Both the position numbers and the translations under genes were made by a program. From contig NZ_CP097263.1 in NCBI RefSeq assembly GCF_028622115.1, positions 4,898,001 to 4,962,000 on the forward strand: a stretch of 64,000 nt of DNA, written 5' to 3'. The DNA is from Kutzneria chonburiensis. GTDB lineage: Bacteria; Actinomycetota; Actinomycetes; Mycobacteriales; Pseudonocardiaceae. Shown piece after piece: positions 34,306-64,000 of the stretch (positions are counted from its first letter, which is position 1; every line of letters starts with the position of its first letter). The notes beneath the pieces are model-generated. The model saw only the letters and a list, made by a program, of their open reading frames with translations, did no database searches and was not told the DNA's origin.

Positions 34306-34317
34306 GGAGGACCGGCC

Positions 34318-34503: not shown

Positions 34504-34515
34504 AAGGGATCCACC

Positions 34516-34695: not shown

Positions 34696-34706
34696 AGGAA
34701 GCGACC

Positions 34707-34901
34707 ATGACCGCGATGCTCGACGACTTCGACCTCGACATTCGCATCGGCGACCTGAAGGTCCAGCCGCTGGCGATGCAGACGACCAGCGACAACGGCG
34801 GCTGCACGGAGAACACCGAGGGCGGCATCACCTGCACCACGGGCAACACCGCCCGCGTCTGCCTCACCGACGCCTCCTGCCACAAGACCGTCTGCTGCTG
34901 A
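34707..34901 (+). CDS. FxLD-family class I lanthipeptide precursor 6
   Basis: 64 residues from ATG 34707 with GAAGGAAG upstream. Leader MLDDFDLDIRIGD; Thr-rich core with six Cys, including GITCTTGNTARVC, ending SCHKTVCC. It is the last precursor; LanC follows almost directly, and the LanC frame is the same frame as this gene after its stop codon. Confidence 0.9.
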   Translation: MTAMLDDFDLDIRIGDLKVQPLAMQTTSDNGGCTENTEGGITCTTGNTARVCLTDASCHKTVCC

Positions 34902-34988
34902 GCCGATGACGACAACCGTGCGACCACCGGTCGAGCACTGGAATCCCCGCTGTCGCCCGCCCTCGCCGACCGGGCGCTGTCGGTCGCG

Positions 34989-36170: not shown

Positions 36171-36183
36171 CGAGGAGAAGTCC

Positions 36184-49296: not shown

Positions 49297-51891
49297 ATGA
49301 TGTGCAGCATTGCCCCGCGCAGCGTGAACCTGCAAGGCGTGGCGCTGGTGAACGACCGGTGCGGCTGGGCGGTGGGCGACGGCGGCATGATCCTCATGAC
49401 GACCGATGCGGGAGGGACGTGGCTGCCGCAGGGAGAGACCGAGAAGGACCTGCGCGCGGTGAGCTTCGTGGACACGGAGCGGGGCTGGGTGGCGGGTCGG
49501 GACGGGACGATCCTGCGGACCGAGGACGGTGGCAGCACCTGGGAAATCTGCGCATCGGGGACGGATCGGAACCTGTACGGCATCGCGGTCGCACCGGAGG
49601 GCCGGACGGGCTGGGCGGTGGGCGACAGCGGCACGATCCTGGTCACGACGGACGGCGGCCGGACCTGGGGCCGGCAGGACGGGATCGACGACACGCACCT
49701 GTCCCGATGCTACGCGCTGGACGACGACACGGCCTGGGTGGTGGGCATGCGGGGCCGGATCCTCGCGACCACGGACGGCGGCGAGACCTGGCGGATCCAG
49801 CCGACGGGCGTGGAGAACGACGTCAGGGGCATCTACGCGATCTCCAAGGACGAGGTCTGGGCCAGCGGCCGCAAAGGCACGCTGCTGCACACCGAGGACG
49901 GCGGGGCGACCTGGACGAAGGTCGACGCCGACACGGAACTGGACATCTACGGCCTGTGGGTGTCGCCGGACGGCGGCAAGATCAGGGCCTCCGGTGACGA
50001 CGGCTACATCTTCGCCTCGGACGACGGCGGCAGGACCTGGGCCCCGCAGAACAGCGGCACGGGCAAGGATGTCGTGTCGCTGTCCTTCGACCGCAACGCC
50101 GAGAACGGCTGGGCGGCCGGCGATGACGGCCTGATCCTGGGCACGCCGGACGGCGGCGAGACGTGGCGGCCGCAGCTGGACGGCACGTACATGGATCTTG
50201 TCGGCATCCACGGCACGGGCGAGAACCGCTGGGTGGTCGGACAAAGCGGCACGGTCGTACTCAGCACGGACGGCGGCACGACCTGGCGTGGCGGGCACAT
50301 CGGCGTCGACGAGCTGCTGTGGGCCGTGCACCAGGACAACGCGGTCGGTGCGAACGGCACGATCGTCGTCACCGAAGACGGCGGCCAGACCTGGCGGCGC
50401 GAAGACAGCGGCACCACCGAACACCTCTACAGCATCCACTCGGGACGGGCCGTAGGTGCCAACGGCACGATCCTGGTCAAGGACGGCGGCACGTGGACGC
50501 GGCAGGACAGCGGCACCGACCGTCACCTGTGGGCGGTCACGTTCGTCCACAAGAAGGGCTGGGCGGTCGGGGCCGACGGCACGATTCTCGTCACCGAGGA
50601 CGGAAACACCTGGCACAGCCAGGAATCACCGGTCGATGTAAACCTGACCAACGTATGCGCCCTGGACGACAATACGGCCTACATCGTCGGCCGAAACGGC
50701 ACGATCCTGGCCACGCAAGACGGCGGAACCACCTGGCAGCAACAGAAGAGCGGCACTGAAAACGCCCTTTGGGGAATTGCATTCGACGGCCGGAACGGCT
50801 GGGCGGTCGGCGACGGCGGCACGATCCTGGCCACCCGGGACGGCGAGCTCTGGCAGCCCCAGGACAGCACGGTTTCCGGTGCCCTCAAAGACGTCTGGGC
50901 CGGTGCCGGCAAGGCCACGGCGGTCGGTGACGGCGGCCAGATCATCGCTACGACCGACGGCGAGAACTGGGCCGCACGGGTGGAAAGCACCGGCAAGAAC
51001 CTCTACGGCGTGCTGATCGACCCGGCCACGAACAACGGCTGGGTGGTCGGCGACGGCGGCACGGTCCTGGCCTCGCGCCGCGGCGGCCGCTGGCATCACC
51101 AGCGCAGCAACACCACCCGCAACCAGTACCGCATCGCGATGCCCAACGGCCGCAAGGGATGGACCATCGGCCGCGGCGGCACGATCATGACCACCGAGGA
51201 CGCCGGCCGGACCTGGCAGCCGCAGCAGAGCGGCTCCACCAGGGATCTGCTGTCGGTGCACGCCCGTCCCGACGCGCGCCGAGCGTGGGCGGTCGGCGAC
51301 TGCGGCACGATCGTGCACACCGGCGACGGCGGCAACACCTGGGTCCATCAACCGACCACCGGCATGGCCGACATCCCGTTGTGGGAGATCGGTTTCGCCG
51401 ATGACACGACCGGGTGGACGACCGGTGAGCGGGGCAAGATCCTGGCCACCACGGACGGCGGCCGGACCTGGACCCACCAGCACAGCGGCACCGTGGACGA
51501 CCTGCTCGGCGTGCATGTCATGGACAGCAACAAGGTCTGGGCCGTGGGCGACGGCGGCACGATCGTCAGCACCACCGACGGCGGCCGGACCTGGCGCGGC
51601 CACGAGAGCGGCACCACGCAGAACTTCGTCACCGTGCACTTCTCGGCCGACGGCCGCACCGGCTGCGCGGTCGGCCGCAGCGACGTCGTGGCCATCACCC
51701 GCGACGGTGGCGACACCTGGCAGGTCGGCGTGACAGGATCGGGCATGTCGTTGTGGGATGTCGCCGTGCTGTCGCCGGACCGGTTGTGGATCGTCGGCGA
51801 CGAGGGCACCGTGCTGTCCACCGACGACGGCGGCGCCAGTTGGAACCAGCATTTCTACAGCCCGGAGAAGGACCTGAAAGGAACGGTATGA
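49297..51891 (+). CDS. Giant YCF48/BNR-type beta-propeller protein with 21 repeats
   Basis: 864 residues from ATG 49297 (GAGGGGGAG eight bases upstream). The whole protein is built of a roughly 41-residue repeat with consensus GWAVGDGGTILATTDGGRTW followed by a short linker. By eye I count 21 repeats. YCF48/HCF136-like proteins form seven-bladed propellers, so 21 blades would make three propellers in a row. No signal peptide, membrane helix, catalytic domain or C-terminal anchor is seen, so it should be a cytoplasmic scaffold. Coupled by ATGA to the rraA-like gene. Function unknown. Confidence 0.85.
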   Translation: MMCSIAPRSVNLQGVALVNDRCGWAVGDGGMILMTTDAGGTWLPQGETEKDLRAVSFVDTERGWVAGRDGTILRTEDGGSTWEICASGTDRNLYGIAVAPEGRTGWAVGDSGTILVTTDGGRTWGRQDGIDDTHLSRCYALDDDTAWVVGMRGRILATTDGGETWRIQPTGVENDVRGIYAISKDEVWASGRKGTLLHTEDGGATWTKVDADTELDIYGLWVSPDGGKIRASGDDGYIFASDDGGRTWAPQNSGTGKDVVSLSFDRNAENGWAAGDDGLILGTPDGGETWRPQLDGTYMDLVGIHGTGENRWVVGQSGTVVLSTDGGTTWRGGHIGVDELLWAVHQDNAVGANGTIVVTEDGGQTWRREDSGTTEHLYSIHSGRAVGANGTILVKDGGTWTRQDSGTDRHLWAVTFVHKKGWAVGADGTILVTEDGNTWHSQESPVDVNLTNVCALDDNTAYIVGRNGTILATQDGGTTWQQQKSGTENALWGIAFDGRNGWAVGDGGTILATRDGELWQPQDSTVSGALKDVWAGAGKATAVGDGGQIIATTDGENWAARVESTGKNLYGVLIDPATNNGWVVGDGGTVLASRRGGRWHHQRSNTTRNQYRIAMPNGRKGWTIGRGGTIMTTEDAGRTWQPQQSGSTRDLLSVHARPDARRAWAVGDCGTIVHTGDGGNTWVHQPTTGMADIPLWEIGFADDTTGWTTGERGKILATTDGGRTWTHQHSGTVDDLLGVHVMDSNKVWAVGDGGTIVSTTDGGRTWRGHESGTTQNFVTVHFSADGRTGCAVGRSDVVAITRDGGDTWQVGVTGSGMSLWDVAVLSPDRLWIVGDEGTVLSTDDGGASWNQHFYSPEKDLKGTV

Positions 51892-52499
51892 GCTTCAAGG
51901 ACGTCCCGCCGACCACCCTGGCCGACATCCTCGGTCGCCAGCAGGTGATGGACATCGGCATCCGTCCACTGTGGACGGGTGCGCCGCGGGTGGCCGGTCC
52001 GGCGTTCACGGTGAAGTGCGCGCCCGGCGACAACCTCATGCTGCACGCCGCGATCTACCGCGCCGAGCCGGGTTCGGTGATCGTGGTGGAGTCCGGCGAC
52101 CTGGACTACGCGCTGGCCGGCGGCAACGTGTGCGCGGTCGCGCACCGCCGCGGCGTCGCCGCGTTCGTGGTCGACGGCCTGATCCGCGACCTCGGCGAGG
52201 TCCGCGAGGACGGCTTCCCGGTGTTCGGCCGGGGCGTCATCCCGATTCCGGGCACCAAGAAGGAGGTCCGGCCGCTGGGCGGCCAGGTCACCGTCGGCGG
52301 CGTGCGGATCAACCCCGGCGACATCGTGGTGGCCGACGAGGAAGGTGTCGTCGTGGTGCCGGGCGACCGGCAGGACGAGGTCCTCGCGCAGGCGCAGGCC
52401 AAGCTGGCCAAGGAAGCCGCCGAGACCCTGGACGACTGGGAGCAGGCGCACCGGGCCCGCATCGACAAAACGTTGGCGGACAACGGCTTCGTGGGCTGA
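51888..52499 (+). CDS. RraA-family protein (HMG/CHA aldolase-like)
   Basis: 203 residues from ATG 51888 with AAAGGAA upstream and ATGA overlap with the propeller gene. RraA fold: APGDNLMLHAAIYRAEPGSV, GGNVCAVAHRRGVAAFVVDG, LIRDLGEV with the Arg-Asp metal site, and NPGDIVVADEEGVVVVP. Members are either class II aldolases for 4-hydroxy-4-methyl-2-oxoglutarate or oxaloacetate, or RNase E regulators. The Arg-Asp pair favours enzyme activity. The translational tie to a large scaffold protein is unusual. Confidence 0.88.
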   Translation: MSFKDVPPTTLADILGRQQVMDIGIRPLWTGAPRVAGPAFTVKCAPGDNLMLHAAIYRAEPGSVIVVESGDLDYALAGGNVCAVAHRRGVAAFVVDGLIRDLGEVREDGFPVFGRGVIPIPGTKKEVRPLGGQVTVGGVRINPGDIVVADEEGVVVVPGDRQDEVLAQAQAKLAKEAAETLDDWEQAHRARIDKTLADNGFVG

Positions 52500-52539: not shown

Positions 52540-52630
52540 CAGCCGGGCCGAGCGGCCGGGGAGGCCCCGGCAGGCAGGCCGAGCAACCGGGCCTGACAGC
52601 CGGGCTGAGCGGCCGGGAGGCCCGGCAGGC
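52540..52630. repeat. Direct repeat, two GC-rich units
   Basis: A unit beginning CAGCCGGGC and containing GAGCGGCCGGG, then AGGC and CCGGCAGGC, occurs at 52540-52575 and, with small changes, at 52597-52630. The units are 57 bp apart start to start. They are noncoding and lie between the rraA hairpin and the MFS gene end. Each unit can fold on itself. Origin unclear; it may be a slippage-derived extension of the terminator region. Confidence 0.6.
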
Positions 52631-52656
52631 GAAGTGCCGGGCCGCTGCCGAGCCGG

Positions 52657-53877
52657 CTAAGCCGGAGCCGCGACTGCCTCCGAACCGCGTTTGCGGGTGG
52701 CCAGCGCGACGATCGGGGGCATGGCCGCACCCAGCGCGACGAAAGCCGCGGCCAACACGAACCATCCGGGCACGCCCAAGACCAGGGTCAACGAGGTGAA
52801 GATGGCCGGGGCGATCATCTGGCCGATGTCCTGGCCCATGGCATGGGTGCCCTGGTACTGCCCCATGGCGTGATCGGGGGCCAGCTCGAAGGCGATGCCC
52901 CAACTGCCGGCGGCCTGCCGGACCTCGCCCAAGGCATGGGCGACACCGCCGGCGACGAGCAGCAGACAGGCCAGCCAGACGTCGGCGCCGCTGCTGAAGG
53001 CGAAGATGACGCAGGCGGCGGCGACGCAACCGGCGCCCTGGAGGCTGGCGCGGGCGGACCTGGCCGGGGTGTCGGTGCCGCGGGCGGCGCGAGTCTGCAC
53101 CAGCACAACGAGAATCGTGTTGGTCAAGAGGATCACGGCGCTCATCCACTTGGGGGCGTTGGTGTGGTTCAACACCCACAGCGGCAGCACCACGTCCAGC
53201 AGCACGGAGTGCGTGGACAGCAAGCCGTCGAAGACGGTGAAGCTCAGGAACGGCAGATCGCGCAGCACGCCGAAGGTCGGCCCAGGCTTGGGCGGCACCG
53301 GCGGCACCTTGGGCTCCTTGGCCGTCAACAAGCCCGTGACCAGGAAGCACGCGGCGGTCAGCAGGACAGCTCCGTGATAGGCCGGCAAAGACTGCGAGGC
53401 CAGGACAAGGCCGGCGATCATGGCGCCGATCGACACGCCGACATTGCACGCCGAACGGATGTAGGCCAACACCTTCACGCGTTCGCCGGACGGGACGAGA
53501 CCGGCGATCATGGCCTTCCGCGCGCTGCGACCGGCCCGGTACGCGATGCCCTGCACGGACACCACCACCAGGTAGCTCCAGAACCCGGTGACGAACAACA
53601 AGCCGGCGGTCAGCGGGGCCAACAGGAGGAAAGACCACATCTGCACGCCCCGTGGACCCAGCCGGTCGGCCAGGTGCCCCAACGGAATGCTGAACAGCAG
53701 CACGATCCCGGCGGCCACGGTGGCGCTGATGCCGAGCTGGGCCGGGCTGAGGTGCACGACGGTCACCGCGTAGATCGCGTTGAGCGCCATCCACAGCCCC
53801 TGCCCCAGCGTCATGATCCCACTGAGGATGCTGAACAGCCGGACCGGGCCCGGCGGCAGCAGAAAACGGCTCAACAC
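52657..53877 (-). CDS. Major facilitator superfamily transporter
   Basis: 406 residues from GTG 53877 with AGGGGGAG upstream. Twelve hydrophobic helices; the loop 2-3 MFS motif appears as GHLADRLGPRG. Last gene of the long minus-strand operon, 14 bases after an ATP-grasp gene. In a biosynthetic operon it most likely exports the product and may give self-resistance. Substrate unknown. Confidence 0.88.
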   Translation of the reverse strand: MLSRFLLPPGPVRLFSILSGIMTLGQGLWMALNAIYAVTVVHLSPAQLGISATVAAGIVLLFSIPLGHLADRLGPRGVQMWSFLLLAPLTAGLLFVTGFWSYLVVVSVQGIAYRAGRSARKAMIAGLVPSGERVKVLAYIRSACNVGVSIGAMIAGLVLASQSLPAYHGAVLLTAACFLVTGLLTAKEPKVPPVPPKPGPTFGVLRDLPFLSFTVFDGLLSTHSVLLDVVLPLWVLNHTNAPKWMSAVILLTNTILVVLVQTRAARGTDTPARSARASLQGAGCVAAACVIFAFSSGADVWLACLLLVAGGVAHALGEVRQAAGSWGIAFELAPDHAMGQYQGTHAMGQDIGQMIAPAIFTSLTLVLGVPGWFVLAAAFVALGAAMPPIVALATRKRGSEAVAAPA

Positions 53878-53891
53878 GAAAGTCTCCCCCT

Positions 53892-55130
53892 TCAGACGGT
53901 CGCGCCGTCGTGGGCCTTGGCCCGCACCAGGAATCCCAGCCGCCGCACGCCTTCCCGCGCCGCCGCAACGGCATCAGCTGGCCTATCCGCGACGGCTCGC
54001 ACCTGCGCGACCCGGGACTCCGACGACGCCAGCCCGTCCAACACAGCGCCGGGCTTGGCCAGCAGCTGCACAGAGGTCACGCCCTCGACCGCCGAAGCCT
54101 CGTCCTGCCCGGAAACGCTCTCCAGGACACCGGATCCGGCCAACGCGGCGAACCAGATCGCCGAACTGCCCTGCCCGGACGAAGAACGGATCGACGGCAG
54201 CACCTTCTCGCCGAGTGTCTGCCGCACAACACAATCCGCCAGGTCGACGCCGGTGACATCCAGGGTCAGCGAGGGAATGTCGTCCCCGCCGAAGCGAACG
54301 TGGGTCTCGATCAGTCGAGGACCGTCAGCGCCCAGCACGATTTCCGTGTGCGTGGGACCGAATTCGACGCCGAGGGCGGCCAGCACACGGTTCGTGTACT
54401 CCTCGATAGCCGAGCGCTCCGCAGCCGTCAGCGGCGCCGGGGCGACGTGTCCGAGCTCGACGAAGGTCAACGGATCGGAATACTTCCGCGTCACCGACAC
54501 GGTCACGTGCTCGCCGGCCTCGGCGAACCCCTCGACGCTGTACTGGTCCCCGTCATGGAACTGCTCGACGATCACGCCGGCCGCCGGAATGCCCTCGTGC
54601 GAACCGCTGGCCCGCACCCACGCCGCCGGAACGTCCTCGGCAGCACGAACCAGCGCCACCCCGGCACTGCCGGCGCCCTCGATCGGCTTCACCACACAGG
54701 GTCCATTAGCCCGGAAGAAGGCCAGCACGTCACTTTCGGCGTCAGCAAAGACAAAAGCCGTCGAGTCGACGCCAAGATCGGCCAACTTCTCGCGCATGCG
54801 CAGCTTGTCGTGCACCAACGCCACGGTCTCCACACTGTGCGTGTATAACTCCAGCGCCGCCCCGATCGCCGCGCAGCGGTCCTGCTCCCGCTCACCCACG
54901 GTCGCGATGCGAGTGAACGGATGCACGGCGTGCGCCGCCGCGGCCAGGGCCACCCACTCCTCATCGGGTGCATCCGCCCGCACGCCGATGACTCGCCGAT
55001 TCAAGGCCGGCTCGCGCACCTTGTGCAGCGACTCGACCCGCACGATCACCGAGGTCTCGGCACCGGTTTCGCGGAAGCGGGCCGGGAACTCCCGGCCCGT
55101 GCCGACGACGAGAACATGCTCCGTTGTCAC
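53892..55130 (-). CDS. ATP-grasp ligase
   Basis: 412 residues from GTG 55130 (GGGGGAG upstream; GTGA overlap with the preceding ATP-grasp gene). ATP-grasp fold: GPCVVKPIEGAGSAGVALVR (ATP loop), FHDGDQYSVEGFAEAGE, and the metal site TEIVLGADGPRLIETHVRFG. It joins a carboxylate, through an acyl phosphate, to an amine, often an amino acid. Related to dipeptide ligases of the BacD/L-amino-acid-ligase and carnosine-synthase group. One of two side by side, which suggests two amide bonds in the product. Confidence 0.88.
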   Translation of the reverse strand: MTTEHVLVVGTGREFPARFRETGAETSVIVRVESLHKVREPALNRRVIGVRADAPDEEWVALAAAAHAVHPFTRIATVGEREQDRCAAIGAALELYTHSVETVALVHDKLRMREKLADLGVDSTAFVFADAESDVLAFFRANGPCVVKPIEGAGSAGVALVRAAEDVPAAWVRASGSHEGIPAAGVIVEQFHDGDQYSVEGFAEAGEHVTVSVTRKYSDPLTFVELGHVAPAPLTAAERSAIEEYTNRVLAALGVEFGPTHTEIVLGADGPRLIETHVRFGGDDIPSLTLDVTGVDLADCVVRQTLGEKVLPSIRSSSGQGSSAIWFAALAGSGVLESVSGQDEASAVEGVTSVQLLAKPGAVLDGLASSESRVAQVRAVADRPADAVAAAREGVRRLGFLVRAKAHDGATV

Positions 55131-56359
55131 GACTCCCCCACCCAGCTCGTGTTCAGCCGCCACCAGTCCACCAACTGGGTCATCCGCTTGTCCACCTGAT
55201 CGGGCGTGTCGCCGAAGACAGTCGCGCCGAGGGCGGCGTCGGTGGCATGGGCCAGGCCGTCACGCTCCGTGCCGGCGGCCAGCTGCGTGACGATCTCCAC
55301 GCCCGGAATCGGGCAGGATTCCGAAGGCCCGACCAGCTTGCCGTGACCGGGCGGCACCAGAATCCAGCCGTAGGCCGATCGCGGCGCGGCCGGCTGCTCC
55401 GTCAGGGTGAGGTCGTCGCCACACTGCACGCGCAACCCCTCCTTGGCCAGGTGCACACCGAAGGCCCGCTCGTACGTCTCCGCGACCAGCGCCCCGCCGG
55501 AACGGCTGGCGATCTCGCAGAACACCGGCTGGCCGTCGGCCCGGATCCACGCCTCCAGGTGAAACACCAACGGTTCCTCGCAGCGGGGCAGCGCCGCGAT
55601 GACGTCCGCGGTCAACCCCATGAGCAGCGTATTTCGCGGGTCCTCGGGAGCCAGTAGAACACTGCTCAAGCACGTCGAGTCGCGGACCCGCTCGGCCACG
55701 CCACCGTTGTACTGCGACGGCCAGCCATGCAGGATCCGGCCGTCGACCATGACCCCGTCCACGTGGAAGAAGTCCCCGCGCACGAAGGACTCCGCCATCC
55801 ACTGCCCGGGCAGGTGCGGCACATCCCCTTGCCGGCCAAGGAACTCGTCAAGATCATCGTCGCAAGACAGCACGCTCACGCCCGAGGCGCCGGCACCGTC
55901 GCGCGGCTTGACCACTACGGGAAAGCCATGCGCTTCAACGAAATCGAGCAGATCGAGCGGGTCATCGATGGCGACGAAGGCCGGCACCGGCACCCCGGCC
56001 TCGACCGCGAACCGCTTCATCACGACCTTGTCCCGATGGGCCAACGCGGACGCGACGCCCTGCCCGGGCACGCCCAGCCGCTCCCGCAGCCGGGCCGCCC
56101 GCAGCACGTCGTGCTCACTGGTGCTGGCCACCAGCTCCACGCCGTGCGCGCGGGCGGCCGACTCGGCGGCCCGCAGCGCCGACCAGCCGTGGTAGTCCTC
56201 GACCAGCCGGTGCCGCGGGAAGTGCTCGGCCAGCTCGGCCTCCGACCCGGCCACCGCCTTGGGCGTGGTGAACAGGACGACCGACGACGTGTCGTCCAGC
56301 CAGTCCTGCAGCGGCCGCTTGGACAGCGGCTGCCGGGACAGCAGAAGCACCTTGGGCAT
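55127..56359 (-). CDS. ATP-grasp ligase
   Basis: 410 residues from ATG 56359 (MPKVLLLSRQPLSKRPLQDW). ATP-grasp core: FPVVVKPRDGAGASGVSVLS, FVRGDFFHVDGVMVDG and VFHLEAWIRADGQPVFCEIA, where the Glu residues bind metal. It is only distantly like its neighbour, so it is not a recent duplicate, and probably has another amino-acid or acid substrate. Two bases after the flavin reductase gene and overlapping the next gene by GTGA. Confidence 0.88.
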   Translation of the reverse strand: MPKVLLLSRQPLSKRPLQDWLDDTSSVVLFTTPKAVAGSEAELAEHFPRHRLVEDYHGWSALRAAESAARAHGVELVASTSEHDVLRAARLRERLGVPGQGVASALAHRDKVVMKRFAVEAGVPVPAFVAIDDPLDLLDFVEAHGFPVVVKPRDGAGASGVSVLSCDDDLDEFLGRQGDVPHLPGQWMAESFVRGDFFHVDGVMVDGRILHGWPSQYNGGVAERVRDSTCLSSVLLAPEDPRNTLLMGLTADVIAALPRCEEPLVFHLEAWIRADGQPVFCEIASRSGGALVAETYERAFGVHLAKEGLRVQCGDDLTLTEQPAAPRSAYGWILVPPGHGKLVGPSESCPIPGVEIVTQLAAGTERDGLAHATDAALGATVFGDTPDQVDKRMTQLVDWWRLNTSWVGES

Positions 56360-56361
56360 GA

Positions 56362-56838
56362 TCAGATCCTTGCGTGGGAGGGGCGCACGGTGCCGTGCAC
56401 GTGGACCAGGCCGTCGCCGGGCTCGCCGGACTCCGCGTGCTCGACCGCGCCGACCACCAGGTGGTGGTCGCCGAGCCGGAACACGCCGTGCCGGGAGCAG
56501 ACGAGCCAGGCCAGGCAGCCGTCCAGCAGCGGAACGCCGTGCGGGCCGGGCCGCCAGCGGGTCGGCGGCCCGAACCGGTCGACGCCCTTGGCGGCGAACC
56601 GCTCGGCCACCTCGACCTGGTCCGCGGCCAGCACCTGGATGCCGAACCACTCGGCGTCGGCCACCCGGCCCCAGGTGGACGAGGTCTCGGCCAGCGCGAA
56701 CGACACCAGCGGCGGGTCGGCGCTGAGCGAGGTGAACGACGTGACGGTGACCCCGACCGGCCCGGGCGCGGTCAGCACCGCGACCCCGGAGGCGTGCGAG
56801 CGCAGGACGCGGCGCAGGGTGTGGCCGTCGACGGTCAT
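56362..56838 (-). CDS. Flavin reductase domain protein
   Basis: 158 residues from ATG 56838 (ATGA overlap with the monooxygenase gene). Split-barrel flavin reductase: SHASGVAVLTAPGPVGVTVT, SFTSLSADPPLVSFALAETS and a C-terminal GDHHLVVGAVEHAE. It gives reduced FMN to a partner, clearly the luciferase-like enzyme encoded just before it; the two-component pair is complete. Confidence 0.92.
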   Translation of the reverse strand: MTVDGHTLRRVLRSHASGVAVLTAPGPVGVTVTSFTSLSADPPLVSFALAETSSTWGRVADAEWFGIQVLAADQVEVAERFAAKGVDRFGPPTRWRPGPHGVPLLDGCLAWLVCSRHGVFRLGDHHLVVGAVEHAESGEPGDGLVHVHGTVRPSHARI

Positions 56839-58160
56839 CGCGCGAAGGCCGGCCGCGGCAGGCCCAGGTTGTCCCGCAGCGTCCGGCCGTCGTACTCGGT
56901 GCGGACCAGGCCACGGCGCTGCAACTCGGGCACCAGCAGCTCGACGATGTCGTCGAGGCCGTCGGGCAGGTAGTCGGGCATGATGTTGAAGCCGTCGGCG
57001 GCCTCGTTGAGGAACCACTCCTCCAGGTCGTCGGCGATGGTCTCGGCGGTGCCGATCAGCCGGCGGTGGCCGCGGCCGGCCGACACGGACTTGTACAGCT
57101 CGCGCAGGGTCAGGCCCTCCCGCTTGGCCTGCTGGTAGATCATCTGCTGCTTGCTGGTGCTGCCCTCGGTCGGCGGCAGCTCGGGCAGCGGCTCGTCCAG
57201 CGGGTAGCCGGACAGGTCGATGTCGCCGAGCTGCGCGGTGAGCAGGCTCAGGCCCAACACCGGATCCACCAGGTCTTGCAGCGTCTCGTACTTGTCCTCG
57301 GCCTCGGCCTGGGTGCGCCCGATGACGATGAACGCGCCGGGCAGGATCTTGACGTGCTCGGGGTCGCGGCCGGCGTCGGCGATCTGCTTGCGCATGCCGC
57401 GGTAGTAGTCCTGGGCCTGCTCCAGCGTCTGCTGCACGGTGAAGACGACTTCCGCCCACTGCGCGGCGAAGGCCTGCCCGTCCGGCGATGACCCGGCCTG
57501 CACGATCACCGGGTGGCCCTGCGGCGGGCGGGCCACGTTGAGCGGGCCGCGCACCGAGAAGTGCTCTCCCTTGTGCCCCAGGATGTGCAGCTTGTCCGGG
57601 TCGAAGAAACGGCCGCTCTCCTTGTCGTACGTGAAGGCGTCGTCCTCCCAGCTGTCCCAGAGACCGGCGACGACCTCGATGAACTCGCGCGAGCGGCGGT
57701 AGCGGTCGGCGTGCGCGGCCTGCTGCTCCAGGTTGAAGTTGCGGGCCTCGGCGTCGGTCGCGGAGGTGACGACGTTCCAGCCGGCGCGGCCATGCGACAG
57801 GTGGTCCAGCGAGGCGAACTTCCGCGCCACGTTGAACGGCTCGTTGTAGCTGGTGGAGGCGGTGGCGGCGAGGCCGATGTTGGTGGTGTGCACGGCCAGC
57901 GCGGACAGCAGGGTCAGCGGCTCGAAGTGGACCATGCGGCCCTGCCGGCTGAGCTCCTCGGCGTTGCGGTAGTGCGTGCGCACGCCGGCCCCGTCGGACA
58001 GGAAGATCATGTCGAACTTGCCGCGCTCGGCGGTCTGCGCCAGCCTGCGGTAGTAGTCGAAGTCCAGGCAGCCCTGCGGGTAGGCGTTGGGGTGGCGCCA
58101 GGCGGCGACGTGGTGTCCGGGCGCCGGCAGGAAGGCCCCGAGCTTCATCATGCGGTCCAC
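56835..58160 (-). CDS. Luciferase-like FMN-dependent monooxygenase (NtaA/SnaA/DszA family)
   Basis: 441 residues from GTG 58160 (GGAGAG seven bases upstream). TIM-barrel flavin monooxygenase of the nitrilotriacetate/pristinamycin IIA/dibenzothiophene-sulfone group: KLGAFLPAPGHHVAAWRHPN at the start, GRAGWNVVTSATDAEARNF, and PVIVQAGSSPDGQAFAAQWA. Such enzymes hydroxylate or oxidise C-N or S centres. In this operon it could oxidise an amino-acid-derived intermediate; the substrate is unknown. Confidence 0.9.
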   Translation of the reverse strand: MDRMMKLGAFLPAPGHHVAAWRHPNAYPQGCLDFDYYRRLAQTAERGKFDMIFLSDGAGVRTHYRNAEELSRQGRMVHFEPLTLLSALAVHTTNIGLAATASTSYNEPFNVARKFASLDHLSHGRAGWNVVTSATDAEARNFNLEQQAAHADRYRRSREFIEVVAGLWDSWEDDAFTYDKESGRFFDPDKLHILGHKGEHFSVRGPLNVARPPQGHPVIVQAGSSPDGQAFAAQWAEVVFTVQQTLEQAQDYYRGMRKQIADAGRDPEHVKILPGAFIVIGRTQAEAEDKYETLQDLVDPVLGLSLLTAQLGDIDLSGYPLDEPLPELPPTEGSTSKQQMIYQQAKREGLTLRELYKSVSAGRGHRRLIGTAETIADDLEEWFLNEAADGFNIMPDYLPDGLDDIVELLVPELQRRGLVRTEYDGRTLRDNLGLPRPAFAR

Positions 58161-58181
58161 TGCTGTGCTCTCCTTTGTTGG

Positions 58182-59129
58182 TCAGGGCAGACGGCGAACG
58201 GGGGATCCGGCGAGGAAAGCCTGGATGTCCTCGACGGCTTCGCCGTAGTAGCGCCGGTAGTTGTCTTGTGACACGTAGCCGAGGTGCGGCGTGGCCAGCA
58301 GGTTGCTCGCCGTGCGCATCGGGTGGTCGGCCGGCAGCGGCTCGACGTCGAAGACGTCGACGCCGGCCCCGGCGATTCGGTTGTCGTTCAAGGCATTGAC
58401 GAGCGCGTCCTGGTCGACGATGGCCGCACGGGAGGTGTTGACCAGGTACGCGGTCGGCTTCATCGCGGCTAGTTCGCCGGCACCGATGAGGTTTCGCGAG
58501 CGGTCGCCCAGTGCCAGGTGGATGGAGACGAAGTCGCTGTCGGCCAACAGGTCTGCCTTGGCGACGAGTTCGACGCCGTGCTCGGCGGCGCGCTCCTTGG
58601 TCAGGTTCGGGCTCCAGGCCACGACTTTCATGCCGAAGGCCAGACCGACCGCGGCGACGCGGCTGCCGATCTTGCCGAGGCCGAGCAGGCCGAGGGTCTT
58701 GCCGTGCAGGTCGGCCCCGACCGTCTGCTGCCAGGGACCGTTGCCGCGCAAGGCATTGCTCTCCGTGACGAGGCCACGGGCCAGGCCGAGCAGCAGCGCC
58801 CAGGTCAGCTCGACCGGCGGGGTCGAGGAGCTGGCCGTGCCGCAGACCGTGATCCCCTGCTCCTCGGCGGCCGCGTAGTCGATCACCGAGTTGCGCATGC
58901 CGGAGGCGATCAGCAGCTTGAGCTTAGGCAACTTTTGGATGAGCGCTTTCGAAAACGGGACGCGTTCGCGCAGCGTGACGACGATGTCGAAGTCGGCCAA
59001 CGCCTCGGCCAGCTCCGGGTCACTGAGGTGCTGGTCGAAGATGGTCACGTCGACGCGGTCGGCGATCGGCGACCAGTCGGCCGCGGTGGTCGCCACCCGC
59101 TGGAAGTCGTCGAGGACGGCACAGCGCAT
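58182..59129 (-). CDS. D-isomer-specific 2-hydroxyacid dehydrogenase
   Basis: 315 residues from ATG 59129. Rossmann motif LGLLGLGKIGSRVAAVGLAF; the catalytic triad is visible as Arg in VNTSRAAIVD, Glu in FDVEPLPADHP and His in ATPHLGYVS. Interconverts a 2-keto acid and a 2-hydroxy acid with NAD(P). One base after the epimerase gene and 21 before the monooxygenase gene. In combination with the aconitase homologue it could form a keto-acid-building route similar to chain elongation. Confidence 0.92.
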   Translation of the reverse strand: MRCAVLDDFQRVATTAADWSPIADRVDVTIFDQHLSDPELAEALADFDIVVTLRERVPFSKALIQKLPKLKLLIASGMRNSVIDYAAAEEQGITVCGTASSSTPPVELTWALLLGLARGLVTESNALRGNGPWQQTVGADLHGKTLGLLGLGKIGSRVAAVGLAFGMKVVAWSPNLTKERAAEHGVELVAKADLLADSDFVSIHLALGDRSRNLIGAGELAAMKPTAYLVNTSRAAIVDQDALVNALNDNRIAGAGVDVFDVEPLPADHPMRTASNLLATPHLGYVSQDNYRRYYGEAVEDIQAFLAGSPVRRLP

Positions 59130-59130
59130 G

Positions 59131-60114
59131 TCAGTGTTCTCCGATGTCGTAGGTGCTGACGCCCAGGCCGGGGGCCGCCGGCAGGGTGAGCACGCCCTGA
59201 TCGATGGCCAGGCCGGTGAACGGGTCGTCGACCAGGAGCAGCGGCCCGTCCAGGTCGAGGTAGTCGGCCAGCCCGGCCAGCTGGGCCATCGCGGTCACGC
59301 CGAGCGTGCTCTCGTTCTTGCAGCCCAACATGATCCGCAGTCCGGCGGCCCGGGCCAGCGTGATCATGTCGAGCGCGGCCAGCAGGCCGCCGCACTTGGT
59401 GAGCTTGATGTTCACGCCGGCGACGTGGCCGCGCAGCTTGAGGATGTCGTCGCGGCCGACGCAGTCCTCGTCGGCCAGCACCGGAATCGGCGAATTCTCG
59501 TGCACGTAACGGAGTTCGGTGAGCTGGCCGGCCGGGACGGGCTGTTCGAGCAGCTCGACGCCGTGTTTGGCCAGCTCGCGAGAGACCTCGACGGCGCGTT
59601 CGGCCGTCCAGGAGCAGTTGCCGTCGACCCAGATCCGCCCGTCGTAGACCTCGCGCAGCACACCGGCCCGCCGCCCGTCGTCGGCCGGGGTCATCTTGAG
59701 CTTGAGGATGGGCCAGTCGGCAAGTTCCCTGCCCCGACGGGCCAATTCGTCGTCCGGGCAGGCGCCGATCGACACCGCCGTCGGGGTCAGCGGCAAGTCG
59801 GCCGCGCCGATGACGTGGCTGAGCGGAAGGTTTGCGGCCTTGCCCAGCAGGTCGTGCAGCGCCATGTCCATCGCCGCCAGCACGTTCGGGCGGACGTTGA
59901 GCCGGGCCAGCGTGGACCTGATGGCAAACGGGGTGGTGTCGCCGAGGGCGAGTCCGTCCAATTCGGACGGATCGGCGGCCAGGGCGGTGCCGTAGCCGGT
60001 CAGGCCCTGCCAGTCCAGGCGGACAACCTGTTGGCGCACTTCGCTGACGACACCGCGGCTGCTGGCGAACGGTTCCTTGAAGGCGATGGCGATGTCGCGG
60101 TGCGTGAGTCTCAT
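59131..60114 (-). CDS. Enolase-superfamily dipeptide epimerase-like enzyme (muconate-lactonising subgroup)
   Basis: 327 residues from ATG 60114 (MRLTHRDIAIAFKEPFASSR), ATGA overlap with the upstream gene. Catalytic layout: Lys in LKLKMT, metal ligands Asp in WVDGNCSW, Glu in LLEQPV, Asp in LADEDC, and Lys in VNIKLTKCGG. The DxD motif in LDLDGPLLL near the C-terminus is the mark of L-Ala-D/L-Glu-type dipeptide epimerases. Beside two ATP-grasp ligases it may invert one residue of a peptide product. Alternatively a racemase of another acid. Confidence 0.88.
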   Translation of the reverse strand: MRLTHRDIAIAFKEPFASSRGVVSEVRQQVVRLDWQGLTGYGTALAADPSELDGLALGDTTPFAIRSTLARLNVRPNVLAAMDMALHDLLGKAANLPLSHVIGAADLPLTPTAVSIGACPDDELARRGRELADWPILKLKMTPADDGRRAGVLREVYDGRIWVDGNCSWTAERAVEVSRELAKHGVELLEQPVPAGQLTELRYVHENSPIPVLADEDCVGRDDILKLRGHVAGVNIKLTKCGGLLAALDMITLARAAGLRIMLGCKNESTLGVTAMAQLAGLADYLDLDGPLLLVDDPFTGLAIDQGVLTLPAAPGLGVSTYDIGEH

Positions 60115-61493
60115 CGCTCGTACACCTCCTCGAACGCCGCCACGATCGCCGACGCCTGCTTGAACGTCAGGTCGCGGAAGCCTTCCGGCTCGGTCGGAAC
60201 CGCCGGCTCGCGAAGCTCGCCGCCACGCGGCACGCCGCTGTTGGCGGCGAACCGGCCGCGCATGTACGCCGACAGCTCGTCGCCGCGTGAACCCAATTCG
60301 GCCAATGCCGTGTCGTAGGCCGTGTCCGGCTCGGCCAGCACCGACTTGATCAGGGCGCCCACGAGATCGACGTCCCGGGGCTCGGTGCTGGGCGGGCACA
60401 GCATGAACACCTGGGCCGGCAGCAGCACGAAGCAGATCGGGCTCACCTCGGGGAAGTGCTCGACCAGCGGCGCGATGATGTCCTTCATCGGCCGCACCCG
60501 TGACCGACGCCCGAAGTAGCCGTTGCGGCGCGGCGGGCAGCCGGCCATCGCGCGAGCGCCCCAGTGCAGGTGGGTGATGAACGGGCCTTCGTCGGGCACA
60601 CCGGTCTCGTCCGGGCGGTGATCACCGAACACCGCGAACAGCACGTTGGTCAGCAGCAGCGACGGCACCGGCAACACCGTTGGGAAGTCGGCGATGCGCG
60701 CGAAGAACCACTGCGGATCGGTGAGTGCCTTGAGCGGCAACAGAACCGCTTCGGCCAGCTCACGGGCCGAGCCGTAGCGGTAGTCGTCCAGCAGGTAGCC
60801 GGTGCCGTCGTGGCGGAGGTCGCAGCGCTCGACACCGCCGTCCAGCGTGGCGGCGTGGCTGATCAGCTCGATCAGCGTGCGGTCGGGATACCTGCCCTTG
60901 CCGGCCTCGGTGATCAGCGCGGTCAGCATGTCCAGCAGCAGCGGCTCGTTGTCGACCAGCGAGTGCGCCCAGTTCTTGAACCGGTAGCCGGGAATGTCGG
61001 CCAGCCGCCGCCATTGCACGTCGATGAGCCCGGTCAGCTCACCGTCCACTTCGGTCTGGACGACCGGACAGAACAGGGGCTTGCCGCGGTCCCGTTCGGT
61101 GAAGGCGTGACCGTCCCATGTGTACAGTGGCAGCGGTTTGCGCTCCCCTGCCTCGATGATCGCGCCGGGCTGGTAGACCTCGTCGCCGCCCTCGGTCTCG
61201 GCCTCGGTGCGATTCATCCCGTATACCAACGGATAGCCGTGGCCGGCCCCGCAGATGGCCGTGTTGAAGTCCATCGCGCCGGCCCGGCCCTGGGCGATGT
61301 CGGTCCAGTTGCCGAGATGCCCGGTGCGGGGCGGCAGCAGGCCGTCGCGCTGGTGCACGGCGTCGAGCAGGTCGCCGATTCGCACGTCGTGCAGGCCAAG
61401 GTGCACCGGGGAGAACGTGCGCTTTCGGCTGGTCAACGCATCGACGTCGGCCGCCTTGACCAGCCCGAGCTCCTCGAGGATGTGCTGGCTCAC
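60111..61493 (-). CDS. Uncharacterised 460-residue protein in the biosynthetic operon
   Basis: 460 residues from GTG 61493 (AGGAGGAAAG upstream), overlapping the aconitase stop by GTGA. I recognise no family. No signal peptide or long hydrophobic helix; conserved-looking stretches are FNTAICGAGHGYPLVYGMN, YTWDGHAFTERDRGKPLF and ITHLHWGARAMAGCPPRRNG. The last, with its His/Cys pairs, might bind metal. Fully coupled on both sides, so it is integral to the pathway; a new enzyme is possible. Confidence 0.8.
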   Translation of the reverse strand: MSQHILEELGLVKAADVDALTSRKRTFSPVHLGLHDVRIGDLLDAVHQRDGLLPPRTGHLGNWTDIAQGRAGAMDFNTAICGAGHGYPLVYGMNRTEAETEGGDEVYQPGAIIEAGERKPLPLYTWDGHAFTERDRGKPLFCPVVQTEVDGELTGLIDVQWRRLADIPGYRFKNWAHSLVDNEPLLLDMLTALITEAGKGRYPDRTLIELISHAATLDGGVERCDLRHDGTGYLLDDYRYGSARELAEAVLLPLKALTDPQWFFARIADFPTVLPVPSLLLTNVLFAVFGDHRPDETGVPDEGPFITHLHWGARAMAGCPPRRNGYFGRRSRVRPMKDIIAPLVEHFPEVSPICFVLLPAQVFMLCPPSTEPRDVDLVGALIKSVLAEPDTAYDTALAELGSRGDELSAYMRGRFAANSGVPRGGELREPAVPTEPEGFRDLTFKQASAIVAAFEEVYER

Positions 61494-63943
61494 CTTTCCT
61501 CCTCGGCCAGCCGCTGGGCCAGGTACGGCAGCGTGCCGCCGGACCGCAACAGAGCCCACTCGGCCGCGTGCACCTCGGCCCGGGCCGTGAAGCTGATGTC
61601 ACCGGCCGTGACCTCGACTTGCCCGGTGCGCTCGTCCAGGGACAGGTCGAATTCCTCGCGTCCGGTCAGCCCGAGGGCGGCCCAGGCCTTGGGCAGCAGC
61701 AGCGGCAGGATGCCCATGGCGCACAGGTTGGCGCGGTGGATGCGTTCGAAGCTCTCGGCCAGCACCGCCCGCACGCCCAGCAGCCACGGCCCCTTGGCCG
61801 CCCAGTCGCGTGACGACCCCATGCCGTAGTTGTGGCCGGCCAGCACGATCAGCGGCGTGCCGGCATAGCGTTGCGCCGCTTCGAACACCGGCACCGTGTC
61901 GCCCGTCGGGACGTGCAGCGTCAGGCCACGGCCGTCGCCGTCGCCGACCAGCCGGTTGCGCAGTCTGGGGTTGCTGAACGTGCCCCGGGCCATCACTTCG
62001 TGATTACCCCTGCGGGAACCGTAAGAGTTGAACTCCGGTATGCCTCTTACAGTCAGGTAGCGACCGGCCGGGGAGTCGGCCGGGATGCCGCCGACCGGCG
62101 AGATGTGGTCCGTGCTGACGTCGTCGCCCAGCGCCACCAGTACGCGGGCGTTGCGGAGTTCGGCCGTCAGGGGCTTGCCGTCGACGTAGGCCGGCGGCCG
62201 GATGTAGGTGGAATCGGGGTCCCAGGCGAAGACTTCGCCGGTCTGGGCCGGGATGCTCGCCCAGCCGTCGGGCGCGGCGATCGGCACCGTGAAGACCTCG
62301 GGCTTGAGGCACTCCTCGGCCAGCGCCGCCAGCTCTTGCGAGCTCGGCCAGATGTCGCGCAGGAACACCGGCTCGCCGTCGCTGCCGATGCCCAGCGGCT
62401 CCGCCTCCAGGTCGATCCGCACGTGACCGACCAGCGCCAACGCCACGACCAGGGCCGGCGAGGCGAGGTAGCCCGCGCGGACCTGCGGATGCACCCGGCC
62501 TTCGAAGTTCCGGTTCCCGCTGAGCACCGCCGCCGCGACCAGCCCGTCGCGATCGACCGCCTCCGCGATCTCCGGGTGCAGGGCCCCGCTGCCGCCGTTG
62601 CAGGTCATGCAGCCGTAGCCCGCGATGTGGAAGCCGAGCGTCTCCAGGTCGTCGAGCAGACCGGTGTCCTTGAGGTAGCGGGTCACGGCCAGTGATCCCG
62701 GCGACAGGCTGGTCTTGACGTGCTTCGGCACCGTCAGTCCGCGCTCGACCGCCCGCCGGGCCAGCAACCCCGCAGCCAGCATGGCCTGCGGATTGGACGT
62801 GCTGGTGCACGAGGTGATCGACGCGATGGCCAGGTCGCCGTCACGCGAACCGGGTTCGCGGTCGAGCCGGGCGGCGAAGGAATCCGGCAGGTCGGACAGG
62901 TCGATGCGCTGGTCGGGGCGGCTGGGGCCGGCCAGGCTGGGGCGCACTGTGCCGAGGTCGAACTCGATGAGCCGGCCGAAGCGGGGTTCCGCGCCGGTCC
63001 GCAGCAGACCCTGCTCGCGACAGTAGCGCTCGACGCGCTGCACCTCGTCCGAGGGGCGGCCGGTCTCGCGGAGATAGCGAAGGGTCTCCTCGTCGACCGG
63101 GAAGAAGCCGGTCATGGCACCGTATTCCGGGGCCATGTTGGCGATGGTGCAGCGGTCCTGGGCGGAGAGCTGGGCCAGGCCGGGGCCGGTGAACTCGACC
63201 AGCAGGCCGCGTACGTTCTCCTTGCGCAGCAACTGGGTCAGGGTCAACACCACGTCGGTAGGGCCGACACCGGGTTTGATGGCGCCGGTCAGCCGGACGC
63301 CGACGACCGGCGGGATCTTGATCGGGTGGGCCAGGCCCACCAGGAGCGCCTCGGCCTCCAGGCCGCCGACGCCCCAACCCAGGACGCCGAGGCCGTTGAC
63401 CATGGTGGTGTGGCTGTCGGTGCCGATCACGCTGTCGGGGAAGGATTCCCCGTCCTCGGTGGCGACGACGGTGGCCAACCGCTCCAGGTTGACCTGGTGC
63501 ACGATGCCCTGGCCGGGCGGGATGACCCGCAACCGGTCGAACGCCCGCTCGGCCCACTTGAGGAAGGCGTAGCGCTCCCCGTTCCGGGAAAGCTCCAGGG
63601 ATTCGTTGCGGGACAAGGCATCTGGCCGGCCAGCGAAGTCGGTCTGGACGGAGTGGTCGACAACGACGTCCACCGGCAGGGCCGGGTTGACCCGTGCCGG
63701 CTGGTCGACGCGGTCACGGAGTGCCGCCAGGTCGACGAGCAGCGGAATACCGGTGTAGTCCTGCACGAGGATCCGCGCCGGCCGGAACTCCATCTCCAGG
63801 TCCGGGTCCTCGCCGGCGGCCAGCCGCTTGACCAGCAGAGCCGCCTTGTCGGTGTCACCGTTGCGCAGCAACGACTCGGCGAGCACCCGTCCGCAATACG
63901 GGACAGAACTCAAGTCAGAAGTGAACTCCGGCAGACTGATCAT
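61490..63943 (-). CDS. Aconitase-family hydratase/isomerase (Fe-S)
   Basis: 817 residues from ATG 63943, a little shorter than AcnA (about 890). The [4Fe-4S] cysteines are intact: Cys379 in SITSCTSTSNP, Cys445 and Cys448 in GYGCMTCNGGSG. Active-site features include VIGTDSHTTMVNGLGVLGWG and YGMGSSRDWAAKG near the end. The usual GYGCTTCIGNSG is altered to MTCNGGSG, which hints at another substrate. Pathway-specific aconitase homologues (for example in phosphinothricin and FR-900098 biosynthesis) isomerise malate-type intermediates. Not likely the TCA enzyme given its operon. Confidence 0.9.
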   Translation of the reverse strand: MISLPEFTSDLSSVPYCGRVLAESLLRNGDTDKAALLVKRLAAGEDPDLEMEFRPARILVQDYTGIPLLVDLAALRDRVDQPARVNPALPVDVVVDHSVQTDFAGRPDALSRNESLELSRNGERYAFLKWAERAFDRLRVIPPGQGIVHQVNLERLATVVATEDGESFPDSVIGTDSHTTMVNGLGVLGWGVGGLEAEALLVGLAHPIKIPPVVGVRLTGAIKPGVGPTDVVLTLTQLLRKENVRGLLVEFTGPGLAQLSAQDRCTIANMAPEYGAMTGFFPVDEETLRYLRETGRPSDEVQRVERYCREQGLLRTGAEPRFGRLIEFDLGTVRPSLAGPSRPDQRIDLSDLPDSFAARLDREPGSRDGDLAIASITSCTSTSNPQAMLAAGLLARRAVERGLTVPKHVKTSLSPGSLAVTRYLKDTGLLDDLETLGFHIAGYGCMTCNGGSGALHPEIAEAVDRDGLVAAAVLSGNRNFEGRVHPQVRAGYLASPALVVALALVGHVRIDLEAEPLGIGSDGEPVFLRDIWPSSQELAALAEECLKPEVFTVPIAAPDGWASIPAQTGEVFAWDPDSTYIRPPAYVDGKPLTAELRNARVLVALGDDVSTDHISPVGGIPADSPAGRYLTVRGIPEFNSYGSRRGNHEVMARGTFSNPRLRNRLVGDGDGRGLTLHVPTGDTVPVFEAAQRYAGTPLIVLAGHNYGMGSSRDWAAKGPWLLGVRAVLAESFERIHRANLCAMGILPLLLPKAWAALGLTGREEFDLSLDERTGQVEVTAGDISFTARAEVHAAEWALLRSGGTLPYLAQRLAEEER

Positions 63944-64000
63944 TCCGCGGCCCCGGGGTACACCCGGGCGCGCGGGCCCGTGTAGTCCAGCAGCGGGCGG
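63940..64000 (-). CDS. 3' end of another operon gene (cut by window edge)
   Basis: Only the last 19 codons are visible, ending LLDYTGPRARVYPGAAE-stop with an ATGA overlap onto the aconitase-like gene. Too short to identify. It shows that the operon continues beyond the right edge, so the cluster's first genes are missing here. Confidence 0.7.
   Translation of the reverse strand, partial: RPLLDYTGPRARVYPGAAE

Follow-up and report, generated by a model that had tools for sequence, protein, structure and literature searches.

At the right-hand end (52657-64000) of the stretch of DNA analysed here, a 64,000-nucleotide window (positions 4898001-4962000) of the single-contig, 10.41 Mb genome of Kutzneria chonburiensis, nine complete minus-strand genes and the 3′ end of a tenth are densely packed into an operon that may turn an atypical citrate into a small peptide-like compound, a proposal which in its full glycine/aminocitrate form we regard as an even bet. 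A free-standing adenylation protein would activate a small amino acid, most likely glycine, and load it onto the carrier domain of a carrier-protein/citrate-synthase fusion, whose citrate synthase domain would take the glycyl thioester in place of acetyl-coenzyme A (acetyl-CoA) and, with oxaloacetate, release 2-aminocitrate. A modified aconitase would dehydrate 2-aminocitrate and perhaps rehydrate it to aminoisocitrate, a 2-hydroxyacid dehydrogenase would oxidise the new hydroxyl group, and a flavin mononucleotide (FMN) monooxygenase with its flavin reductase would carry the oxidation further to a glutamate analogue. ATP-grasp ligases would then join this analogue to one or two amino acids, an enolase-superfamily enzyme would epimerise the glutamate-like residue inside the dipeptide, a DUF6025 protein would do a necessary step, and an MFS protein would export the product. 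We infer all of these reactions, the order of the later steps (from oxidation onward), and the amino acid and oxaloacetate as substrates.

That the operon encodes a conserved carrier-primed biosynthetic unit appears much surer than this full mechanism; the gene set, its conservation, the fusion and the active-site residues can be read directly from the sequence. The more general statement, that a glycyl-carrier-fed citrate synthase starts a carrier-primed copy of the entry steps of the citric acid cycle (aminocitrate, aminoaconitate, aminoisocitrate and an oxidised glutamate analogue) for peptide antimetabolites, spread among actinomycetes and Vibrio plasmids and including a DUF6025 protein of possibly new fold, is put forward more tentatively, with slightly more doubt than belief.

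Genes were called by script, and families were assigned with Pfam and NCBIfam profiles. In transcript order, the 5′ half encodes the adenylation protein, the carrier/citrate-synthase fusion, the aconitase, DUF6025 and the enolase-superfamily enzyme, and the 3′ half the 2-hydroxyacid dehydrogenase, the FMN monooxygenase, the flavin reductase, ATP-grasp ligases B and A and the MFS protein. From the fusion gene to the MFS gene the successive intergenic gaps are −4, −4, −4, +1, +21, −4, +2, −37 and +14 bp, so that the claim of the first-pass annotation, made from the window alone, that at least ten genes are coupled in one biosynthetic operon is borne out; the set recurs in relatives, and the adenylation, carrier and ligase genes suit synthesis. 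The genes which that annotation listed are all present, but it had left out DUF6025 and two accessory genes described below. The first two genes of the transcript lie largely or wholly beyond the window and were read from the adjoining stretch L006: the fusion gene at 63940-65310 in window coordinates (L006:940-2310, minus strand), of which the window holds 63940-64000, and the adenylation open reading frame at 65153-66859 (L006:2153-3859, minus strand; AMP-binding, 249 bits). The latter overlaps the fusion gene by 158 bases in a different frame. The corresponding genes of relatives either do not overlap or share 4 bases; thus, the overlap is either a true one or a sequence error, and there is no sign of a three-part fusion. 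No condensation or thioesterase domain was found among the operon proteins of the window in the Pfam and NCBIfam scans and, as far as domain content tells, the operon is not a modular nonribosomal peptide synthetase.

Since DUF6025 (PF19490) is the rarest member of the set, it served as the probe for relatives. With the host counted each time, a match above the family cut-off was obtained for a single genome among 396 sampled from the phylum (two more matches were weak and below cut-off), for 2 of 297 from the family and for one among 397 from the order. In Streptomyces, the genus of locus L022, 4 of 343 genomes matched above the cut-off, that of L022 being one of the four. Two peptide patterns run against a genome collection of 84,980 species matched 40 stretches, of which eight were confirmed as loci. 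Six of these (L020-L025, from Streptantibioticus, Kitasatospora and four Streptomyces) carry the operon; in the other two, from Lentzea terrae (L026) and Yinghuangia (L027), a DUF6025 protein of about 30% identity sits in another cluster. Three further loci (L051-L053) bring the actinomycete total to ten, window included.

All ten loci encode the adenylation protein (incomplete in L024, where the contig ends within the gene), the fusion, the aconitase, DUF6025, the enolase-type enzyme, the monooxygenase, the flavin reductase and ATP-grasp B. Compared with their window counterparts, these proteins show identities of 70–76% for the fusion, 70–73% for the aconitase, 59–70% for DUF6025, 59–69% for the enolase-type enzyme, 80–83% for the monooxygenase and 57–66% for ATP-grasp B, the last measured in all nine other loci. 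ATP-grasp A (53–68%) is present in nine of the ten, the copy in the L020 genome lying upstream in stretch L054, and was not seen within the 20 kb of L053. The 2-hydroxyacid dehydrogenase is likewise present in nine; L020 has a 3-hydroxyisobutyrate-dehydrogenase-family gene in its stead. MFS homologues (62–69%) occur in L021-L023, L025, L051-L053 and L054, and none is visible in L024.

The fusion also occurs at full length on plasmids p251 (NZ_CP009356.1) and pFP31 (NZ_CP117031.1) of Vibrio tubiashii, as a tblastn search with the fusion protein showed; these two plasmids are the sole DUF6025-matching records among 72,556 plasmids (E 1e-5). There the order is 2-hydroxyacid dehydrogenase, adenylation protein, ATP-grasp, MFS, fusion, aconitase, monooxygenase, DUF6025, ATP-grasp and enolase-type enzyme. 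Identities between p251 and the window are 34% for the dehydrogenase, 39% for the adenylation protein, 40% for the fusion, 42% for the aconitase, 67% for the monooxygenase, 32% for DUF6025 and 36% for the enolase-type enzyme. The first p251 ATP-grasp protein is 32% identical to ATP-grasp A, and the second is 30% identical to A and weakly like B (26% over 152 residues). The Vibrio and window MFS proteins gave no BLAST match at E 1e-3, and the annotation of the Vibrio stretches shown lists neither a flavin reductase nor an RraA-like or propeller gene. Because the set is kept across two phyla despite its shuffled order, it behaves as a working unit, and its recurrence in nine further loci of actinomycetes and on both Vibrio plasmids makes it a real functional unit, beyond chance. 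Its carriage on plasmids of a shellfish-associated marine Vibrio suggests transfer of the pathway from one phylum to another.

The evidence on the starter amino acid comes from the binding pocket of the adenylation protein, whose nine residues were mapped by eye on alignments to 8k4r and 6akd with GrsA numbering. The resulting code, DLFFLCLIA plus the usual Lys, is identical in the ten proteins that cover it, including the Vibrio protein at 39% identity, and the incomplete L024 protein matches it at the positions present. Within this pocket, Asp219, Leu220 and Cys288 are spaced (+1, +69) like Asp247, Leu248 and Cys316 of AlmE, a glycine-activating enzyme in which, according to a review, Asp247 binds the amine, and Leu248 and Cys316 lie near the glycine Cα and disfavour larger or D-amino acids, as verified by mutagenesis (PMC11253843). 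The adenylation proteins of L020 and Vibrio also match AlmE (4oxi) in the PDB. Glycine is thus the most likely activated amino acid on the strength of the pocket. Like AlmE, IdnL7, VinM and DltA are free-standing enzymes that adenylate small amino acids for a separate carrier; they feed lipopolysaccharide, lipoteichoic acid or polyketide chemistry, whereas here the downstream partner would be a citrate synthase.

In the fusion protein an N-terminal phosphopantetheine-attachment domain (PF00550, 22.5 bits) precedes a C-terminal citrate synthase (PF00285, 365 bits), an architecture kept in all 11 sequences from two phyla. His267, His302, His341, Asp394, Arg350, Arg419 and Arg438 are retained in 11/11 fused citrate synthases; they comprise the catalytic His/His/Asp residues and the oxaloacetate-binding arginines. 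For comparison, 33 control rows of ordinary citrate synthases were assembled from the four other matches in the host genome and 29 from the phylum sample, the latter, like the aconitase controls below, being the best-scoring loci of 60 genomes and not a random draw (one row is a duplicate, L041 and L043 being the same reading frame). Position 335 is Pro in 11/11 cluster proteins versus Arg/Lys in 31 of the 33 control rows, position 220 is Ala/Leu in 11/11 versus Lys/Arg in 29, and position 206 is non-basic in 10/11 versus Arg/Lys in 32. Such a loss of basic residues fits, as a reading of the alignment, an enzyme supplied by the carrier domain fused to it.

The aconitase (61490-63943, minus strand; TIGR01341, 994 bits) is of the AcnA type with an altered active-site loop. 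All 11 cluster enzymes carry CxTC-N-G-G-SG, with Asn449 and Gly451, where all 28 control AcnA proteins carry CxxC-I-G-N, with Ile and Asn (30 control loci were drawn and two dropped where the motif filter missed the gene). Eight positions passed the filter (63, 195, 265, 277, 449, 451, 610 and 617), with Met replacing Thr at 277; the cysteines, the Ser-Ser-Arg motif and the other signature motifs are intact. Asn is also found at the position equivalent to 449 in all seven AcnD-type proteins compared, four of them annotated (beside prpF, and three also beside prpC) and three from unannotated loci of the same clade. AcnD acts on 2-methylcitrate, whose substituent sits on the acyl-derived carbon, where a glycine-derived aminocitrate would bear its amino group. 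The 2-methylcitrate cycle (PrpC and AcnD) thus shares a citrate substituted on that carbon, and AcnD shares the Asn, but the cycle is catabolic and CoA-dependent, and the window enzyme is far from reaching the AcnD cut-off (TIGR02333, 719 against 1420 bits). In a tree of seven of the 11 cluster enzymes, six of the 28 actinobacterial controls and 13 plasmid-borne relatives, the second of two that were made, the non-cluster sequences fall on one side of a branch with support 99.7/100, so that the actinomycete and Vibrio cluster enzymes stand together. AcnD forms a separate clade in this tree, and the Ile-to-Asn change therefore seems to have arisen twice.

Several observations weigh against the glycine-to-aminocitrate scheme. 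The carrier domain passes its Pfam cut-off only marginally (22.5 against 20.8 bits), and the cluster rows are mutually related, L023 and L024 being nearly identical. Positions 206, 220 and 335 were chosen by eye from the column list, and a stricter pre-set filter picked 263, 281 and 297 instead; a contact of the altered positions with CoA is presumed, position 335 preceding the loop that holds the CoA adenine in pig citrate synthase. The window aconitase passes the AcnA equivalog cut-off (994 against 945 bits), while the Vibrio enzyme falls under it (845 bits). Position 449 is occupied by Gly, Ala or Val in further AcnA-like enzymes encoded on plasmids, and Asn449 is therefore not diagnostic alone. 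In the first aconitase tree, which contained one wrong row (Burkholderia arboris), the Vibrio enzyme did not group with the other cluster enzymes, and the 11 cluster enzymes needed two changes; a single change sufficed in 24% of 200 bootstrap trees, and this tree carried a long-branch warning. On the same side stand the PDB entries that the adenylation protein of the window matches best, namely 8k4r (VinM) and IdnL7 (6akd). Finally, the D-alanine enzyme DltA carries the same Leu/Cys pair as AlmE (PMC11253843), and the code is therefore also compatible with D-Ala.

The last two observations lead to the alternative that survives best, although we judge it unlikely: the same carrier-based citrate chemistry with another acid, either D- or L-alanine, which would give a quaternary amino acid, or an amine acylated on the carrier in the manner of VinM. 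IdnL7 and VinM are reported to accept Gly, L-Ala and L-Ser, and VinM-type enzymes such as IdnL7, which also acylate amines, are reported to conserve Cys217, Ala285 and Thr318 (IdnL7 numbering). All ten cluster proteins long enough to include these Cys/Ala/Thr positions have Leu/Cys/Ala there instead, and no alternative carrier-loading enzyme was seen in the operon. Ordinary citrate-synthase chemistry, moreover, requires an enolisable CH2 or CH3, which glycine has.

Slightly less probable still is that the citrate synthase uses acetyl-CoA and yields citrate or isocitrate, with the carrier serving elsewhere, for example to tether an amino acid for the ligases or the monooxygenase. The intact catalytic residues and the aconitase score above the AcnA cut-off would allow this. 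The retention of the fusion across two phyla, the loss of the typical basic positions and the changed aconitase active site speak against it, as does the host genome, which already has four other citrate-synthase-family matches and an ordinary AcnA.

The steps after aminocitrate would fall to the later enzymes of the operon. In the D-2-hydroxyacid dehydrogenase (58182-59129, minus strand; 2-Hacid_dh_C, 185 bits), Arg234, Glu263 and His282 are invariant in ten of ten sequences, window and Vibrio included. An isocitrate-like alcohol is an α- and a β-hydroxyacid at once, and this enzyme and its replacement in L020, of α- and β-hydroxyacid types, respectively, would both suit it. The monooxygenase (56835-58160, minus strand) is an FMN-dependent (LLM) enzyme of the NtaA/DmoA family, scoring above cut-off with TIGR03860 (603 bits), and is followed by its partner, the flavin reductase (56362-56838, minus strand; Flavin_Reduct, 118 bits). 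NtaA, ScmK and HvrB are named as members of this family in one paper (PMC7858074), and by generalising from these three we would expect oxidation of a carbon next to nitrogen, sulfur or phosphorus.

The enolase-superfamily enzyme (59131-60114, minus strand; MR_MLE_C, 116 bits) retains Lys138, Lys140, Asp164, Glu190, Asp215, Lys237 and the pair Asp287-x-Asp289 in 11/11 sequences, and the PDB entries closest to it carry the names muconate cycloisomerase and dipeptide epimerase. It shares the catalytic Lys, metal ligands and DxD motif of the L-Ala-D/L-Glu epimerase family, although it scores under the NCBIfam equivalog cut-offs. Since DxD in that epimerase holds the dipeptide by its free amino group, the expected substrate is a dipeptide ending in a glutamate-like residue, for which aminocitrate-derived acids would qualify. 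The ligases fit such a peptide: ATP-grasp A (53892-55163, minus strand; ATP-grasp_4, 66 bits) has an L-amino-acid-ligase C-terminal domain (LAL_C2, 52 bits), and ATP-grasp B (55127-56359, minus strand) matches NCBIfam PRK02186 below its cut-off (66.9 bits), with the Pfam match also below cut-off. The two had been taken as unrelated, which does not hold, as they are 27–28% identical over 321–339 residues (E 1e-10 to 1e-9). Together with the epimerase and the transporter (52657-53877, minus strand; MFS_1, 99.9 bits), which is probably an exporter, the ligases point to the small modified peptide and its export that the first-pass annotation had suggested.

A LAL_C2 ATP-grasp ligase, a pathway to an unusual amino acid and an MFS protein are also what ATP-grasp dipeptide antimetabolites such as dapdiamide, bacilysin and the phosphonopeptides have in common. 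These differ in the amino-acid pathway, and the dapdiamide A synthase model reaches only 52 bits against a cut-off of 840. One candidate for the product was alahopcin, a dipeptide antibiotic that contains a cyclic hydroxamic acid; its carbon skeleton could derive from aminocitrate, but the aconitase and the dehydrogenase would be left without a clear role, and it is retained as an unconfirmed lead only.

DUF6025 (60111-61493, minus strand; PF19490, 572 bits) belongs to the core set. Among 12 sequences, 72 residues are invariant, including His308, His310 and Trp311, and the HxHWGA motif is kept in 12/12. Searched by fold against the PDB, its AlphaFold2 model (pLDDT 77.5, pTM 0.82) had no counterpart at E≤0.001, the best hit being at E 3.6, and no function can therefore be read from the fold. 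The family was looked for in phages, where none was found, and it is not described in the openly licensed PubMed Central (PMC) papers searched. The cluster sets this uncharacterised family in a defined chemical context. As separate observations, the Lentzea (L026, L018-L019) and Yinghuangia (L027) clusters are similar to each other and distinct from the present operon, and in L027 DUF6025 has haem-oxygenase-like, tryptophan-halogenase-like, TauD-like and Asp/Glu racemase genes as neighbours, so that it again adjoins a racemase.

That the operon serves to break down or detoxify an amino-tricarboxylate, or belongs to a siderophore system of the citrate type, seems very improbable. NtaA-family enzymes degrade nitrilotriacetate and RraA-like proteins can be aldolases or decarboxylases, and two close plasmid relatives of the monooxygenase (Nostoc and Burkholderia) lie in neighbourhoods that resemble sulfur metabolism and not this pathway. 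The ATP-consuming adenylation, carrier and ligase genes, however, fit synthesis rather than breakdown, the rare and patchy distribution is usual for specialised metabolism, and no siderophore synthetase or TonB receptor was present in the Pfam scans of the operon proteins or the Vibrio annotation.

The closest comparison is with the pantaphos (hvr/HiVir) locus of Pantoea ananatis, which encodes an aconitase-superfamily dehydratase, an NtaA-type monooxygenase, a flavin reductase, ATP-grasp proteins and an MFS protein, and whose proposed pathway follows the same logic with a phosphonate starter, beginning with a phosphoenolpyruvate (PEP) mutase and an isopropylmalate-synthase-type enzyme (PMC7858074). 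On that proposal, both systems would share a citrate-like condensation, aconitase-superfamily dehydration, NtaA-type oxidation with a flavin reductase, ATP-grasp ligation and MFS export. The present cluster differs in starting with an adenylation protein and a carrier/PF00285 citrate-synthase fusion, and in having DUF6025, a dipeptide-epimerase-like enzyme and a 2-hydroxyacid dehydrogenase beyond the pantaphos set. Because the PEP mutase and the isopropylmalate-synthase-type enzyme are absent, the cluster is not of that pathway, though it would work alike; the earlier analogy to phosphonate antibiotics was useful because of the resemblance in the other enzymes. The first-pass annotation had pointed to the next kilobases for a PEP mutase or a citrate-synthase-like starter, and the latter does lie just upstream, but no PEP mutase was found in the 39 kb read there. 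EDK-x5-NS, the motif of PEP mutases, does not occur in any of the 17 stretches checked (the window, those 39 kb, and 14 related or neighbouring stretches, with L026, L027 and L050 outside the check), and the annotation of both Vibrio plasmid stretches is free of a PEP mutase. The host genome has six PF13714 matches, five of them above cut-off, but each is separated from the operon by roughly 0.9 Mb or more and is without the motif. A phosphonate or phosphinate pathway of the pantaphos, FR900098 or phosphinothricin kind, with its PEP mutase encoded elsewhere in the genome, is thus the least credible of the explanations despite the enzymes held in common with hvr, the more so since the operon carries its own amino-acid starter enzyme and carrier.

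No cluster of citrate synthase, carrier protein, aconitase and adenylation domain, and no aminocitrate or related compound, was found described in the openly licensed PMC literature, in agreement with the earlier statement that the set matches no known cluster, pantaphos alone being comparable. The pathway would, from its genes, be of the citric-acid-cycle-mimic type with a starter step that we have not found described there. The known biosynthetic copies of the cycle, those of phosphinothricin, FR900098 and pantaphos, start from CoA- or phosphonate-derived units. If the glycine-started scheme is true, an aminoacyl carrier serving as the citrate-synthase nucleophile would be a new C–C bond-forming use of aminoacyl carriers, and would open a direct route to β-branched glutamate analogues, likely amino-acid or tricarboxylate antimetabolites.

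Judged by its neighbours in relatives, the cluster is larger than the operon, reaching upstream to the adenylation gene (66859) and, on the opposite strand, taking in two accessory genes (49297-52499). These encode an 864-residue YCF48/BNR-type β-propeller protein (49297-51891, plus strand; Pfam PSII_BNR, 262.5 bits) and an RraA-like protein of the aldolase/oxaloacetate-decarboxylase superfamily (51888-52499, plus strand; 144 bits). They belong to the cluster because they adjoin the operon in seven of the ten actinomycete loci, window included, a count made for the propeller with its last ~290 residues as BLAST query. RraA-like copies of 73–80% identity lie beside the operon in L021, L022 (via L028), L025, L051, L052 and L054; there was no match in the L023 and L024 genomes, and none was seen in the 20 kb of L053. 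In Kitasatospora indigofera (L021:822-4121) the propeller and RraA-like genes were called as one reading frame of 1099 residues. A tRNA-Arg (tcg) predicted by ARAGORN at 52589-52666 lies in a GC-rich stretch between the convergent genes, overlaps the end of the MFS gene and is probably a false positive.

Other genes adjoin the cluster in some loci. A response regulator and a short histidine-kinase-like ATPase gene lie beside it at L022:17869-19196, L023:1553-2820, L053:597-1939 and L054:19034-19998, the pairs in L053 and L054 being identified by eye; the L022 and L023 regulators best match DcuR and DpiA, below cut-off, and the L022 partner has a HATPase_c domain. Regulators of this type sense C4-dicarboxylates or citrate. 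A ketopantoate-reductase-like gene (identified by eye in L022) and an extra ATP-grasp gene, perhaps a variant tailoring pair, adjoin the cluster at L054:16321-18650 and L022:19423-21366. Ahead of the operon in Streptantibioticus silvisoli (L020:3-4280) are AurF-type N-oxygenase, MFS, 3-hydroxyisobutyrate-dehydrogenase-type and extra LAL_C2 ATP-grasp genes, a set that suggests an N-oxidised variant of the product. Divergently upstream of the Kutzneria operon (L006:4183-8091, window coordinates 67183-71091) lie a SARP/BTAD regulator and a weak ornithine-cyclodeaminase-family gene, neither of which had a BLAST match beside the operon in the relatives examined. Elsewhere in the window, 33528-40937 holds a class I lanthipeptide-type cluster, in which six short co-directional precursor-like open reading frames with a common leader (~DDFDLDIRIGD) and Cys-containing ends are followed by LanC-like, LanB-type dehydratase (N and C domains) and ABC transporter genes.

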